From assembly GCA_002243285.1 (NCBI GenBank), contig CP022585.1:4328641-4392640 (forward strand): a stretch of DNA of 64,000 bases, in the 5' to 3' direction. Positions 34,590 through 43,277 of the stretch are shown here, one piece after another (within the stretch, counting starts at the first letter, position 1; each line of letters starts with the position of its first letter). The notes beneath the pieces were generated by a model. The model had not been told where the DNA came from and did no database searches. It saw only the letters and a list, made by a program, of their open reading frames with translations. Position numbers and translations under genes: made by a program. Source of the stretch: Candidatus Fluviicola riflensis. GTDB lineage: Bacteria; Bacteroidota; Bacteroidia; Flavobacteriales_D; Crocinitomicaceae.

Positions 34590-37500
34590 ATGATCAATCG
34601 GTTATTGGGTCTTACTACAATGCTCTTTCTGAGCGCACTGGTGCATAGCCAGCTTGCCTATCGTTTCCGTAATTTCAGTATTACCGATGGTTTGTCGCAA
34701 AGTTCCGTTACCTGTATTGTTCAGGATGACGTTGGAACGCTGTGGATCGGCACTCAAGACGGCCTCAACCGGTTCGACGGCCGACAATTCGAACTCTTTA
34801 CTTCCGATGATACCAAGGGGTTGGAAAGCGAATACATCCACTCTTCACTTAAAGCAAAAAACGGGAAGCTGTGGTTTGGTACTTCAAACGGACTTACGGG
34901 TTATGACCAGAACAAAGAGCAGTTTATTACTTATGGTGTAGGATCTAACAATCCGCTTTCCATCGAAGCAATCGCCGAAGCTGGTAATGGTGATTTGTGG
35001 TTGGGAACCTCTACACAGGGATTGGTGAAATGGGAAAACAAGACCAGGAAACTAAAGCTGGTGAATTCCAAGTTCCCCAGTAAACGCATTCTTTTTGTTC
35101 GTTTCCTGGATGATAACACGTTGTTGATCTCAACGGAAGATAAAGGCGTGTTCAGCTACAATATCAAAACAGGCCGTTGGTATAAAGTATTGACGAAAAA
35201 GAAAATTGAGAACTGGCTGGTAAACGATGCGGAATATTTCTCAGGAACCGTTTATATTCTCAGCACAAACAAAGGAATCTGGCTTTACGATTATACAACC
35301 AATACCGTTTCACCGTTTTTAACACAGATCGAACGAGATCTTGGTATCATTGAAATTGCGGACGTATTCCTGCGTTCAACCGACGAGATTTATATCGCTA
35401 CGCAGAATAAAGGTTTGCTGACCGTGTTGAAAAACAATGGTGTCTATTCCATTCATCAAAGCAAGCAGGATATTTTCCAGAAAAACGCCTTGCTGTATGA
35501 CGAAATCAACACGTTATTCCCGGACGAAAACGGCGCTATCTGGATCGGAACCTTGCGCGGACTGAGTTGTTTTGACCCGGTAAACCAGGGCTTTTTGGGA
35601 ATTGGACCTTCTGGAAACCTGAAACTGGGGTTGCCATCGGCTAGTGTTTGGGCATTTGCTGAAGATCCAGACCAAAAACAGTTGTTTGTAGCCACTGATT
35701 TTGCGGTTTCGGTATTGGACCGGTCAAAAGGGTCGTTCCAGCAATATTACCTGGCAAAAGGTTCTGAAAATGATGAATCAAGCATCATGTCGCTGCTCTA
35801 CATCAATGACCACGAGATCTTGGTAGGCTGCACCGACGGTTTGTATTTACTGTCCTACTTCGGTGCTGCGTACACCTTTAAAAAAGTCGAATACAAAAAG
35901 CTGGAAAACCCCACCAACTTTGACCGTATATACAAGATTCTACACTACAAAGACAGTCGTTATTTCTTAGCGACCAAAGGAGGTGTGCTCCTATACGATC
36001 ACGCCAAAAAAACAACGGTCAGTTTTGTACACGATTCCAAAAAACCAAAGAAAACACTTGGAGCAGGTGTATGCCGTTTGGCTTATAAAGGAATAGATGG
36101 CACCATTTATTTCGGAACAAGTACTGGCGGATTGCATGTGTTGAAAACAGATAATAACGGGGAACTTTCTATCGTTCCTTTCCGCTACAACGCACAGCTG
36201 GCGATTATTACGAAAGATTATGTTTCGGCGTTGTATCAGCCTACGAAAACCGATTTGTGGATCGCAACTACAGGTTCGGGCTTGCTCTACATGAACTTTA
36301 AAACGGGTAAAGTAGACAGCTTCTCGAAAAAGGACGGTATTCCCAATAACTTTGTATACGGAATTGTACCGGACGCCAACGGAGATCTATGGATTAGCAC
36401 CAACAAAGGGTTGGGTAAATTTGATCCGGACGACAATTCGTGCATTAACTTCTCGGAAGTCCACGGACTCATGAGCAATGAGTTTAATACCGGAGCATAT
36501 TTGGCTTCAAAAACGGGAGAATTGTATTTCGGAGGAATTGCCGGCTACAACTTTTTCAACCCGCTGACAATGAACAAGCAGCAGCGGCCGCTGGAAATCC
36601 GGTTTACCAAATTCAAGCTCGACAAAGACTGGTTGCACCCGGATGATAAAGATGCGCCGTTCAAAAAAACAATTTCAGAAGTAAACAGGATCGAGTTACC
36701 CTACGACCAGCGAAGTTTTACCTTGCACTTTGTCGCTTCCGACCTCATGAATCCGGAATTGCTGGAATACAAATACCGCCTGAAAGGTTCCGACGAAGAA
36801 ACCATCTTTTTGGGTAGCACCAACGAAATCCGGTTCAACTCACTTTCTCCCGGCACCTATACATTGGAAGTTTACGTGCGCCGAACGGATGGTGAATGGA
36901 TTTCTTCGCCCGCGACGCTCGATATTGAAGTAGCATCACCGTTTTGGTGGAAGTGGTGGTTTTGGGTGATTGCAGCCATTGTGATCGCACTGGTTACGTA
37001 TGGTGTCATTCGTGGCAGAATAGAACAGGCCCGCAGGGAACAGGTGCGGCTGGAAATGAAAATTGTGGAGCGGACCAAGGAAATCCGGGCGCAAAACGTG
37101 AAGATCGAATCGCAAAAACGGATCATCGAGGAAGAGAAGAACAAGGTTGAAGAACAAAAACGGTTGTTGCAGATCGAAAAGGACAAGTCGGAAAAACTCC
37201 TTCGGAATATCATTCCCGAATCTACAGCAGAAGAACTCAAAACAAAAGGCCGGGCATCGGCGCGAGCGTATAAAACTGTTTCGGTGTTGTTTACCGATTT
37301 TGTGGGTTTCACCAAAAGTGCCGAGCGGATGAAACCGACTGAGTTGGTGAACCGGTTGGATATTTATTTCCGGAAGTTCGATGAAATCATTGTGCGCAAT
37401 AACCTTGAAAAAATCAAAACCATCGGCGACGCGTATATGTGTGCCGGCGGAGTGCCCGTGCGCAATAATACCAATCCGATTGATGCGGTATTGGCCGCCT

Positions 37501-38495
37501 TACAGATCCAGGATTACATGCTGCTGCTGCGCAATGACGCCATTGCCAACAATACCGAATACTGGGAATTGCGCCTTGGAATTAACACCGGTGAAGTAAC
37601 GGCTGGTGTAATCGGATCAGAGCGTTTGGCATACGATATTTGGGGCGCGACCGTAAACCAGGCGCAGCGCATGGAAATGATGGGCGAGCCGGGCAGAGTA
37701 ACCATTTCGGGCGCGACCTTTAAGCTGATCGAACCGTATTTTGAATGTACGTTCCGTGGAAAAGTGCAGTCGAAAAGTAAGGGAATGATCGATATGTTTA
37801 CGGTTGAACGCATCAAACCCGAACTTTCGGTCAATGGAGAAGGCTTGTTGCCAAATGACCGTTTTCAGCAAATCGTGAACCTGCACTTATATAGTAGTAT
37901 CAATTACTACAAGGCAGAACGCCACATTATGAAAGTGCTTGAGCGCGGATTATCGTCAAAACTGCATTACCACAGTATCGCGCATACCAAAGATGTGGTG
38001 CGTGCCGTGGAACGTTATGCTTTATTGGAAGGTGTGACCGATGAAGGTTTATTCCTCTTGAAATCGGCAGCGACCTATCACGATGCGGGGTTTGTGGAAA
38101 ACTATGAGCTCAACGAACCGATCGGTGCGCGCATGGCCGAAGAGATCCTGCCGAAATACGGTTATTCCGAACAACACATTGCGCAAATCAAGGAACTGAT
38201 CTTCGTAACGCAGATTCCGCATAAGCCGAAAAATCACCTTGAGCAGATCATTTGCGATGCCGACCTCGATTATTTAGGACGGGATGATTTCCATGAAATT
38301 GCCGACAAACTGCGCCGCGAATTAAAAGAGCACGGTAAAATCGATAGTGACCGCAAGTGGGACCAATTGCAGGTTTCTTTCCTGCGCATGCATGTGTATT
38401 TCACACCGACAGCCATCGCCAGTCGCCAGGAAAAGAAGAACAAGAATCTACAGGAAGTGCTTGATCGTTTGGAACGCGATGAATATGAGGATTAG
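34590..38495 (+). CDS. Beta-propeller sensor fused to adenylate cyclase and HD domain
   Basis: A 1301-residue membrane signalling protein. Signal peptide 1-20; two-component-regulator propeller repeats ~25-690 (LWIGTQDGLNRFDG-type blades recur); Y_Y_Y-type beta domain ~700-780; a transmembrane helix ~787-808 (WWFWVIAAIVIALVTYG); coiled coil ~810-870; class III nucleotide cyclase ~890-1075; C-terminal HD domain ~1110-1290. The cyclase has metal aspartates in LFTDFVGFT and KTIGDAYM. Lys of KTIGD and Asp of YDIWG predict ATP rather than GTP, and NQAQRM supplies the transition-state Asn and Arg. The HD domain shows HSIAHT, YHDAGF and CDADLDYLG metal ligands. It probably makes cAMP in response to an external ligand; the HD domain may hydrolyse a phosphate compound. 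Confidence 0.88.
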   Translation: MINRLLGLTTMLFLSALVHSQLAYRFRNFSITDGLSQSSVTCIVQDDVGTLWIGTQDGLNRFDGRQFELFTSDDTKGLESEYIHSSLKAKNGKLWFGTSNGLTGYDQNKEQFITYGVGSNNPLSIEAIAEAGNGDLWLGTSTQGLVKWENKTRKLKLVNSKFPSKRILFVRFLDDNTLLISTEDKGVFSYNIKTGRWYKVLTKKKIENWLVNDAEYFSGTVYILSTNKGIWLYDYTTNTVSPFLTQIERDLGIIEIADVFLRSTDEIYIATQNKGLLTVLKNNGVYSIHQSKQDIFQKNALLYDEINTLFPDENGAIWIGTLRGLSCFDPVNQGFLGIGPSGNLKLGLPSASVWAFAEDPDQKQLFVATDFAVSVLDRSKGSFQQYYLAKGSENDESSIMSLLYINDHEILVGCTDGLYLLSYFGAAYTFKKVEYKKLENPTNFDRIYKILHYKDSRYFLATKGGVLLYDHAKKTTVSFVHDSKKPKKTLGAGVCRLAYKGIDGTIYFGTSTGGLHVLKTDNNGELSIVPFRYNAQLAIITKDYVSALYQPTKTDLWIATTGSGLLYMNFKTGKVDSFSKKDGIPNNFVYGIVPDANGDLWISTNKGLGKFDPDDNSCINFSEVHGLMSNEFNTGAYLASKTGELYFGGIAGYNFFNPLTMNKQQRPLEIRFTKFKLDKDWLHPDDKDAPFKKTISEVNRIELPYDQRSFTLHFVASDLMNPELLEYKYRLKGSDEETIFLGSTNEIRFNSLSPGTYTLEVYVRRTDGEWISSPATLDIEVASPFWWKWWFWVIAAIVIALVTYGVIRGRIEQARREQVRLEMKIVERTKEIRAQNVKIESQKRIIEEEKNKVEEQKRLLQIEKDKSEKLLRNIIPESTAEELKTKGRASARAYKTVSVLFTDFVGFTKSAERMKPTELVNRLDIYFRKFDEIIVRNNLEKIKTIGDAYMCAGGVPVRNNTNPIDAVLAALQIQDYMLLLRNDAIANNTEYWELRLGINTGEVTAGVIGSERLAYDIWGATVNQAQRMEMMGEPGRVTISGATFKLIEPYFECTFRGKVQSKSKGMIDMFTVERIKPELSVNGEGLLPNDRFQQIVNLHLYSSINYYKAERHIMKVLERGLSSKLHYHSIAHTKDVVRAVERYALLEGVTDEGLFLLKSAATYHDAGFVENYELNEPIGARMAEEILPKYGYSEQHIAQIKELIFVTQIPHKPKNHLEQIICDADLDYLGRDDFHEIADKLRRELKEHGKIDSDRKWDQLQVSFLRMHVYFTPTAIASRQEKKNKNLQEVLDRLERDEYED

Positions 38496-38658: not shown

Positions 38659-40656
38659 TCAAATCTCCACCCCCATAAAACAAACATCATCCACCTGATC
38701 TTCGGATCCTTTCCACTGAAAGAAAAAATCTTCCAGGAGCTGCTGCTGGCGAATCAACGATTCGTGACGAATGCTCAGAATATACTGACGCACGACGGGA
38801 GTTTTCATTTTTTTACCTTCACCTCCTCCAAATTGATCGGCATAACCATCGGTAAACAAGTAGAGGCGGTCACCGGATTTTAACGAAAGATCGTGTGTTG
38901 AAAAAGGTTCGTAACGATCAAATTTTCCAACTGGGGCTTTATTTCCTTTTACGATTTCAAAATCATCGGCATCGGGGCGCAAGATCCACAACGCGTGGTG
39001 CGCTCCGGCAAATTGAACGGCAGAGAGATCATTGGAAAACGATAAAATTCCGACGTCCATACCATCTCTTACCTGGCTTTCAGAAGTGTGCTGGTTAAAA
39101 TTTTCCACCACCAACCTGCGCGTTTCATCCAGTAATTCACCGGGAATGGTGTGCTTCATTTCGCGGACTGCCCGGTTCATCGCGTTGGAGCAAACAATAC
39201 TCACCATTGCGCCCGGAACTCCATGACCTGTGCAATCGCAGCACGCGAGGAGGTAACCCAAAGTGGTTTTTTCAAACCAATAAAAATCGCCGGCAACAAT
39301 GTCTTTTGGGAAATAACTCACAAACGACTTCGGAAAAACGCTCTTGATTCGTTCCTTTTCGGGAAGAATGGCTTCCTGCAAGCGCTTGGCGTAACGAATA
39401 CTTTGCAAAATCTCGGTATTCTGGTGTTCAATAATAGCGTTGGTGGCAGCAAGTTTATCGTGCGATTTTTTCTTGAACCGGTAGCGATTGAACACAAAAA
39501 ACACTGTGATGGAAAGCAACAGAATCCCGACACCTCCGGTAATGAGGTACAAACGAGTTGATTTCTCCGCGAATTTCTTGTCTTGTTCCAGCAGCATAAT
39601 TCGCTGATTGTTTTCCTTGATCGAAATAGCGGCTTCCATTTCAGCCATTTTTTTGGAAACCTTTTGGTTAAATAACTCCGTGCTTAATTGGACGTACTGA
39701 TTTTGGTAATAAAACGCGCTGTCGTACAAACCTCTTGTTGCCAAAATCTTTGAATACAAAAACGCCGCATTTTTGATTTCTTCCTTCGCGCCGATTTCGT
39801 TAGCTATGTTATAGGCCAGTAACGAAAAATAAGCCGCCGAATCGGGTTGTCCTGTTGCCCGCTTTGCCTTGGCCAGATCTACGTAACTGATCGCGAGGCC
39901 TTGTAGATCCTCCAGATACAGCTTTAGTTTGATCGCTTTTTGTAAATACCGTTCCGCGGCCCAAAAATTCCCGCGTTTCAGTTCAATTGTTCCAAGCACG
40001 TCATAAGCGGTTGATTGGACATATTGGTCCTCATTTTCTATACCGAGCCGCAAGGCGTTTTTTGCGCTTGATTTCGCGCCCGAATAACCTTCCATTTCCA
40101 GGTAAAGCTTCGAAAGGTTCGCATACGAATCGCCTTTCGTGATCTTATCACCATGTTTCAACGCTCCTTTGAAATAGGACATCGCTTTCTCGTAGTTTTG
40201 CTGCTGTAAATGAATAGCGCCCAAACCGTTCAGGCACATTGCCCTTCCTTTGGAATTATCGGTTTTATTAAACAGCGATTGTGCCCGGCTGATATGTTCT
40301 ACCGCAGAGCCATATTTTCCTTCCAGAATTTCCAGGTCACCGGTATAAAATAGCGCCCAGGCTTTTCCGTCTTCATCATGAATTTTTTCGGCTAATTTTT
40401 GAGCCTTTACCAAAAACTCCCGCCCGAGTTCATATTTATCCGAGTAATAATGGCATGTTCCCAAATCGAGCAATGCCTGAACGCGGGCCTCACTACTCGG
40501 GTTCGAAATTTTCAATTCGCGATTGGAAAACTCCAGCGCTTTTTCCGGATTACTAAAAATATACGTATCTACCGAATCGTGCAGTGAAACCGCAGCTTGC
40601 TGAGCTGATGCGCCCAAGCAAAAAAGAAGAAAGATACACGCTGGAAGACGCTTCAT
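38659..40656 (-). CDS. TPR-domain sensor with SpoIIE-type PP2C phosphatase
   Basis: A 665-residue membrane protein. Signal peptide 1-18; tetratricopeptide repeats ~20-340 (for example GLGAIHLQQQNYEKAMSYFKGAL); a transmembrane helix ~372-392 (LYLITGGVGILLLSITVFFVF); a coiled linker with the KRLQEAILPE motif typical of SpoIIE proteins; then the phosphatase domain ~430-660 with PKDIVAGDFYWFE, CDCTGHGVPGAMVS, RDGMDVGI and LFTDGYADQFGG, whose aspartates bind Mn/Mg. It likely dephosphorylates an STAS-type anti-sigma antagonist; the RsbW-like ATPase at 19067 could belong to the same pathway. Its ATG overlaps the upstream gene by 4 nt. Confidence 0.91.
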   Translation of the reverse strand: MKRLPACIFLLFCLGASAQQAAVSLHDSVDTYIFSNPEKALEFSNRELKISNPSSEARVQALLDLGTCHYYSDKYELGREFLVKAQKLAEKIHDEDGKAWALFYTGDLEILEGKYGSAVEHISRAQSLFNKTDNSKGRAMCLNGLGAIHLQQQNYEKAMSYFKGALKHGDKITKGDSYANLSKLYLEMEGYSGAKSSAKNALRLGIENEDQYVQSTAYDVLGTIELKRGNFWAAERYLQKAIKLKLYLEDLQGLAISYVDLAKAKRATGQPDSAAYFSLLAYNIANEIGAKEEIKNAAFLYSKILATRGLYDSAFYYQNQYVQLSTELFNQKVSKKMAEMEAAISIKENNQRIMLLEQDKKFAEKSTRLYLITGGVGILLLSITVFFVFNRYRFKKKSHDKLAATNAIIEHQNTEILQSIRYAKRLQEAILPEKERIKSVFPKSFVSYFPKDIVAGDFYWFEKTTLGYLLACCDCTGHGVPGAMVSIVCSNAMNRAVREMKHTIPGELLDETRRLVVENFNQHTSESQVRDGMDVGILSFSNDLSAVQFAGAHHALWILRPDADDFEIVKGNKAPVGKFDRYEPFSTHDLSLKSGDRLYLFTDGYADQFGGGEGKKMKTPVVRQYILSIRHESLIRQQQLLEDFFFQWKGSEDQVDDVCFMGVEI

Positions 40657-42326: not shown

Positions 42327-43277
42327 ATGGAATTCTCACCTGAGGTACAGCAACGTTTGATGCTCCTCAAAGAAAAATATGACGCACAGGGCCAGGACCT
42401 GTTACCTTATCTTGATGGTTTATTGCACGCAAAAACGGTCACTTACTGGGATTATATCCAGGTAGACACCCTATTGTCGCTTCAGAAAACGTCGACTGAT
42501 TTTCCGGATGAAACCATTTTCGTGGTGTATCATCAGATTACGGAATTGTACTTTAAACTGGCATTACACGAGTTTAAGCAATTGGGCGAACTGGAAAACA
42601 TGACAGCTACGTTTTTCATCGCACGAGTGAAACGGATCAACCGTTATTTCGAAGCACTGACCAAAAGTTTTGAGATTATGATCGACGGAATGGAACGCGA
42701 ACAGTTCCTGAAATTCCGTATGACATTGCACCCGGCTTCGGGTTTTCAATCGGCGCAATACCGGAAAATCGAAATTTGTTCAACCGATTTCTTGCAACTG
42801 ACGCACAAAGATGTGCGCGGATCATTTACCGGCGACGAACCGATCGACCAAATGTTTGAACACGTTTACTGGAAGGAAGGCGCAACGGATGCTGAAACGG
42901 GTAAAAAAACCCTGGCTTTGGAAGATTTTGAACGTCGTTACAAAGATGAATTTATTGAACTGGCCGAAGAGCAGCGCACCAAAAATTTGTGGCAATGTTA
43001 CCTGCGTCTTTCACCTGAAGAACAAAATCAGATCGAAGTGATCCAGGTGATGAAACAAAACGATATCAATGTGAATGTAAACTGGCCGTTGATGCACTAT
43101 AAATCGGCAGTGAAATATTTGCAACATAACCAGGGTGACATTCCTGCAACGGGTGGAACCAACTGGCAAAAATACTTGCCTCCGCGCTTCCAAAAACGTA
43201 TTTTCTATCCGCTTTTATGGTCGGAAGAAGAAGTGGCTCAATGGGGAAAATCATGGGTAGAATCGGTATTGGCTTAG
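42327..43277 (+). CDS. kynA: Tryptophan 2,3-dioxygenase
   Basis: A 316-residue heme dioxygenase opening the indole ring of tryptophan to N-formylkynurenine, the first step of the kynurenine pathway. Family motifs are visible: TYWDYIQVDTLLSLQ, DETIFVVYHQITELYFKLALHEFKQL, RFKMTLHPASGFQSAQYRKIE (variant of the conserved PASGFQS loop), and the C-terminal TGGTNWQKYLPPRFQKRIFYP. Length is close to the ~300-400 of the family. No kynureninase or other pathway gene is adjacent, so the fate of the product is not shown here. Confidence 0.93.
   Translation: MEFSPEVQQRLMLLKEKYDAQGQDLLPYLDGLLHAKTVTYWDYIQVDTLLSLQKTSTDFPDETIFVVYHQITELYFKLALHEFKQLGELENMTATFFIARVKRINRYFEALTKSFEIMIDGMEREQFLKFRMTLHPASGFQSAQYRKIEICSTDFLQLTHKDVRGSFTGDEPIDQMFEHVYWKEGATDAETGKKTLALEDFERRYKDEFIELAEEQRTKNLWQCYLRLSPEEQNQIEVIQVMKQNDINVNVNWPLMHYKSAVKYLQHNQGDIPATGGTNWQKYLPPRFQKRIFYPLLWSEEEVAQWGKSWVESVLA

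Follow-up and report, generated by a model that had tools for sequence, protein, structure and literature searches.

A 1301-residue protein encoded in the genome of Candidatus Fluviicola riflensis is probably a bifunctional enzyme, regulated by a membrane signal, that would both synthesize cyclic AMP (cAMP) through a class III adenylate cyclase and hydrolyze it through a C-terminal HD domain, with the two activities perhaps under reciprocal control. Its gene lies at 34590-38495 on the forward strand of the 64,000-nucleotide stretch of contig CP022585.1 analyzed here (the window) and is a single open reading frame (ORF) with an ATG start and 1301 codons plus a stop, uninterrupted by stop codons. 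A first-pass annotation of this DNA had suggested that one protein might make and remove a nucleotide signal. That idea is supported by domain fusions, by gene neighborhoods, by the joint occurrence of HD domain and cyclases across genomes and by the predicted fold, which together point to hydrolysis of a cyclic nucleotide by the HD domain; it is from these data that we infer catalysis.

The cyclase domain (residues 891-1073; 37260-37808, forward strand, as are all features of this protein) scores 147.9 bits against PF00211 (E value 3.1e-43; curated cut-off, 21.9 bits), and its fold matches those of class III cyclases with Z values of 22-27. Domain calls are from Pfam run on the 1301-residue protein, and the fold of the cytoplasmic part is that of an AlphaFold2 (AF2) model. 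The metal-binding aspartates D903 and D947, the ATP-selecting pair K943 and D1016, and the catalytic residues N1023 and R1027 are all present. Among the 71 complete ORFs in the named related loci, 56 are 1200-1399 residues long and form, with the window protein, a set of 57 full-length proteins. D903, K943, D947, D1016 and N1023 are kept in 57/57, so the ATP-selecting lysine and aspartate recognized in the first-pass annotation extend to the relatives as well; R1027 is arginine in 51 proteins and glutamine in 6. The relatives with glutamine at this position (L115, L125, L128, L144, L151 and L172) are full-length, with the HD residues intact.

The HD domain (residues 1101-1301; 37890-38492) has the two marks of the HD superfamily, an all-helical HD fold and, on it, the H...HD...D metal motif. 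The annotation had credited it with all of the metal residues, and H1128, H1132, H1164-D1165 and D1225 are indeed in place. It had also held that a lack of conservation of the HD residues in homologues would speak against its proposal. They are in fact invariant: H1128, H1132, H1164, D1165, E1176, D1223, D1225, W1257, Q1261, F1264 and H1268 show no exception in the 57 full-length proteins, and the metal and acid/base residues do not vary across a 54-member HD alignment that includes stand-alone homologues. In class I phosphodiesterases (PDEs) a YHxxxH motif supplies the general-acid histidine and a metal ligand. The same motif (Y1127, H1128 and H1132; 37968-37985) is found in 54/54 HD members and in 57/57 full-length relatives, and is proposed to serve the same two functions here. 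The metal pair H1164-D1165 (38079-38084) and the D1223-A-D1225 segment (38256-38264), which would provide the last metal aspartate, are invariant in both alignments. Q1261-x-x-F1264 (38370-38381) is a candidate nucleobase clamp; its glutamine and phenylalanine are at least 90% conserved in the 54 members and are kept in 57/57 of the full-length family. Blocks characteristic of this HD family are DADLDYLG, W...Q..F and HxYFT.

When the HD domain of the window protein is submitted to Pfam alone, no match appears even at E<=10, PF01966 included. We assign it to the HD superfamily because its aligned relatives match PF01966 (50/54 at E<=1) and because its predicted fold is that of an HD domain. 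A search of the PDB with the single sequence returned only chance matches to troponin C, and a scan of viral contigs for relatives of the HD domain found none.

The AF2 model of the HD domain has a predicted local distance difference test score of 97.4 and is best matched by class I cyclic-nucleotide PDEs (PDE10A, Z 18.0; PDE7A, Z 17.5; also PDE2A and PDE5A; range 16.8-18.0). These superpositions align 188-195 of the 201 residues, with root-mean-square deviations of 2.5-3.4 and sequence identities of 16-20%. The likeness to class I enzymes (PDE10A, PDE7A, PDE4D and PDE9A) thus covers nearly the whole domain (Z 17-18), and the catalytic-domain fold occurs together with YHxxxH, the HD pair, the metal aspartate and possibly QxxF. 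The best of the other HD hydrolases, 2pq7, aligns over 162 residues with Z 16.9; since the Z values are nearly tied, the advantage of the PDEs is one of coverage only. Foldseek orders the matches differently, with 2pq7 and YpgQ first and PDE4D and PDE5A next, at E values that are all modest. In sequence-profile searches the PDEs appear at E values of 0.03-0.9. The profile score against PDE9A is 34.8, compared with at most 21.2 for 60 shuffled sequences, and the signal comes from the N-terminal half. In pairwise profile alignments Q1261 falls on the PDE glutamine when the presumed PDE4D sequence is used, and off it with PDE9A (a query identical to 2hd1); the confidence of this stretch is zero. 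Because the alignments disagree in a region of no confidence, the correspondence of Q1261 and F1264 to the PDE glutamine and phenylalanine is left as a conjecture.

Fusions and gene neighbors in Bacteroidia tie the HD domain to cyclic nucleotides. It is joined to cyclases in GAF-cyclase-HD and kinase-AAA-GAF-cyclase-HD proteins (the GAF domain of L090 was identified by eye), and to effectors that bind cyclic nucleoside monophosphates (cNMPs) in HD-cNMP_binding-HisKA-HATPase-REC and HD-cNMP_binding-SpoIIE proteins. The domain is also encoded by itself, as a protein of about 200 residues; in this form it is often the neighbor of cyclase or cNMP-binding-effector genes, and the fused pairings reappear as adjacent genes. 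An HD gene lies beside a cNMP_binding-SpoIIE gene at L069, and beside a gene for a cNMP_binding-histidine kinase-REC protein at L070 and L083, where a convergent TPR-cyclase gene occupies the other side; at L078 a TPR-cyclase gene overlaps the HD gene, and a universal stress protein (Usp) gene is next. At six loci (L067, L071, L077, L078, L079 and L082; three Pfam-confirmed) stand-alone HD genes adjoin a Usp gene, which suggests an HD-Usp operon. The Usp neighbors are weak evidence, because cAMP binding by Usps is said to be known only from mycobacteria and their close kin (PMC11107214). Other arrangements include proteins that combine the HD domain with TPRs and an N terminus that looks TIR-like by eye (L088 and L089, the latter adjoining a REC-cyclase-like gene). 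At L086, L091 and L098 a YitT/DUF2179 membrane protein is the fusion partner or neighbor of the HD domain, with a REC-cyclase-like gene close by (Pfam-confirmed in L086).

The same association is seen across genomes. In a sample of 395 genomes of the class, the HD domain is present in 248; a class III cyclase (PF00211) accompanies the HD family in 221 genomes, 134 have neither, 27 have the HD family only and 13 the cyclase only. The resulting phi is 0.79, with 40/395 genomes discordant, as a statistic uncorrected for phylogeny. Photolyase, taken as a control for lifestyle, gives a phi of 0.12 with the HD family, and the link between HD and cyclase holds among photolyase-positive and photolyase-negative genomes separately. 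Of the 65 listed genomes in which the best match is a stand-alone HD protein, 63 have a cyclase, so the co-occurrence is no artefact of fusion. GGDEF domains are found in only 5/395 genomes of the class; cyclic di-GMP (c-di-GMP) therefore cannot be the usual HD substrate, and is rejected for the class at large. Of the substrates that had been listed at first pass, (p)ppGpp and c-di-GMP have become less likely.

The genome that contains the window has 5 matches to PF00211 and 16 to the cNMP-binding family PF00027. It has no match to the class I, class II or CpdA families of PDEs, though other metallophosphoesterase PDEs may be present, and this leaves room for the HD domain as a cAMP phosphodiesterase. 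A cyclase homologue in the same genome (L003, G000:C1:4152580-4153242) has a single in-frame TGA within the match, which may reflect a pseudogene, a frameshift, a sequencing error or the end of the gene.

Several observations weigh against assigning cAMP hydrolysis to the HD domain. Its sequence profile is nearest to the uncharacterized HD hydrolases 2pq7, YedJ and BH2835, with YpgQ, solved with ADP, lower. HDxxH occurs in only 6/54 HD members and the full class I signature, scanned as HD-x-x-H-x-[AG], in 0/54. The co-occurrence statistic makes no correction for phylogeny, and 27/248 HD-positive genomes are without a PF00211 cyclase. Finally, a single protein with both a cyclase and a PDE could run a futile cycle if the two were not reciprocally controlled. 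Opposed activities under such control, in the manner of SpoT or GGDEF-EAL proteins, would be an economical design; the data agree equally well with a constant local sink. With respect to class membership, PF00233 (PDEase_I) has no match in the window protein, and 0/247 genomes of the phylum have one over the curated cut-off. Since both the HDxxH signature and the Pfam test fail, we reject membership of the HD family in the class I PDEs by sequence, but the family may nevertheless work like a class I PDE.

The profile relatives raise the alternative that the domain acts as a YpgQ-like nucleoside-(tri/di)phosphate pyrophosphohydrolase, or as a (p)ppGpp hydrolase, which would adjust the substrate of the cyclase or couple it to nucleotide stress. 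The top sequence and Foldseek matches are 2pq7, YedJ, BH2835 and YpgQ, but such an activity leaves unexplained the fusions and operons with cNMP-binding effectors and the tie to cyclases, and the model fits cyclic-nucleotide PDEs over a longer span (188-195 residues versus 162 for 2pq7); we consider it unlikely. It has also to be asked whether the domain is catalytic at all, since its N-terminal placement in the HD-cNMP_binding-histidine kinase and HD-cNMP_binding-SpoIIE proteins is a natural one for a regulator. An HDOD-like domain that binds cAMP or another ligand and allosterically controls the cyclase or neighboring effectors would, however, be expected to lose some of the metal and acid/base residues, which are invariant in 54 diverse members, and we regard this role as distinctly improbable. 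Hydrolysis of some other cyclic nucleotide (2',3'-cNMP, c-di-AMP, a cGAMP-type molecule or cGMP) would accommodate the HD-positive genomes that lack a PF00211 cyclase; HD folds take many substrates, and class I PDEs include cGMP enzymes. Yet it is to cyclases in particular that the HD domain is linked, the ATP-selecting lysine and aspartate are universal in the full-length relatives, and the scarcity of GGDEF domains nearly excludes c-di-GMP, so that another cyclic nucleotide as substrate seems very improbable.

The protein is a member of a conserved family. The HD domain is present in 99/100 genomes of the family to which the window belongs, mostly in ORFs of about 1300 residues, and an architecture found again in almost all of these genomes is not a product of chance. 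The named related loci are mostly from Crocinitomicaceae, including Fluviicola and Brumimicrobium, which makes Crocinitomicaceae the most likely family of the window. Thus the architecture, which the first-pass annotation had proposed to look for in other Bacteroidota, does recur in the family, and HD-cyclase fusions are found across Bacteroidia. In 12 further relatives of about 530 residues the propeller has been lost, with the transmembrane helix, coiled coil, cyclase and HD domain still joined, and the same genome as the window encodes a REC-cyclase-HD paralogue of 565 residues. These forms indicate that cyclase and HD domain are a unit and that the sensor is exchangeable. At L066, in another family (f8), TPR repeats recognized by eye stand where the propeller does, before the same cyclase-HD core. 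The tree of 54 HD domains requires about five changes of the state "fused to cyclase", at least two of them forced by well-supported branches; fusion to the cyclase has therefore been gained or lost more than once.

The sensor half of the window protein begins with a signal-peptide-like N terminus (residues 1-20; 34590-34649), recognized by eye from the sequence only. It is followed by an extracytoplasmic β-propeller of Reg_prop repeats (about residues 21-700; 34650-36689; PF07494, E value 6.6e-29), a Y_Y_Y domain (residues 721-781; 36750-36932; PF07495, 8.1e-16) and a single transmembrane helix (residues 784-811; 36939-37022) located by a Kyte-Doolittle hydropathy scan. In the cytoplasmic model (mbe4b07e2ce63, helix 2-64) a continuous 63-residue helix, a long signaling helix or coiled coil (residues 812-874; 37023-37211), leads into the cyclase. 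ORF analysis, Pfam, hydropathy and the AF2 model thus reproduce the order of domains given in the first-pass annotation. We envisage that the periplasmic propeller and Y_Y_Y domain would bind an external cue, perhaps a carbohydrate, and that the change would be relayed by the transmembrane helix and coiled coil, which may dimerize and align the class III cyclase. The cyclase dimer would then convert ATP to cAMP, and the HD domain, as a metal-dependent phosphodiesterase, would hydrolyze cAMP to AMP, either as an off-branch or as a local sink. Onto this core, propeller, REC, GAF, TPR or kinase-AAA-GAF sensors may have been grafted.

The nearest precedent is plant CAPE (COMBINED AC with PDE) of Marchantia and other streptophytes, for which both activities have been shown in vitro (PMC5159850, PMC8115329). 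Like the window protein, CAPE joins a class III adenylyl cyclase to a metal-dependent cyclic-nucleotide PDE in one chain, the PDE role being predicted here. Mutation of H199 and H203 abolishes its PDE activity (PMC5159850); judging by their spacing, we read these as the YHxxxH histidines. In CAPE the order is reversed, with an N-terminal PDE that is a true class I enzyme, two transmembrane helices lie between the domains, and there is no propeller. The window protein has the class III cyclase of such a fusion; its HD domain, of about 200 residues, fails the sequence tests for class I PDEs and is about 100 residues shorter than those enzymes. Among solved HD structures, those nearest to the sequence profile are uncharacterized bacterial HD hydrolases and B. 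subtilis YpgQ, which are stand-alone proteins and cover the HD model less fully (162 residues for 2pq7). The extracytoplasmic sensor and single transmembrane helix are those of the hybrid two-component systems of Bacteroidota (propeller-Y_Y_Y-histidine kinase-response regulator). As had been surmised at first pass, a cyclase and an HD domain take the place of the histidine kinase output, and Pfam finds no HisKA/HATPase_c, receiver or DNA-binding domain.

The propeller sensor and the union of cyclase and PDE in one chain are therefore known already, from hybrid two-component systems and plant CAPE, respectively. In the literature covered, which left most subscription journals outside, we found neither the HD family nor Bacteroidota cyclase-HD fusions described, and no account of a propeller-cyclase-HD protein or of a bacterial cAMP phosphodiesterase of the HD type. 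The chances seem even that the HD domain represents an additional class of bacterial cAMP PDE, not yet described, a structural counterpart of the animal class I PDEs and maybe the missing off-switch in Bacteroidota, with one external cue toggling both activities; there is a fair chance that the family merits a PDE class of its own. cAMP signaling has been little studied in Bacteroidota, where the class is rich in cNMP-binding proteins and class III cyclases, with c-di-GMP synthases almost absent. If the HD family is a cAMP phosphodiesterase, it would be what turns the cAMP pathway off in a major phylum. The window protein would then be a bacterial example of a receptor complete in itself, its one chain carrying both cyclase and PDE, and the fold of the class I PDEs would have a compact bacterial counterpart. 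The invariant residues and the small stand-alone HD proteins make the question accessible to one assay.

Within the window, the gene convergent with the sensor gene (38659-40656, reverse strand) encodes a TPR-SpoIIE phosphatase. SpoIIE is also an output of the HD family by way of cNMP_binding (L095, and L097 by similarity), so that a functional link between the two genes is possible. Farther downstream, an ORF at 42327-43277 on the forward strand matches part of tryptophan 2,3-dioxygenase (PF03301 positions 15-137 of 346).

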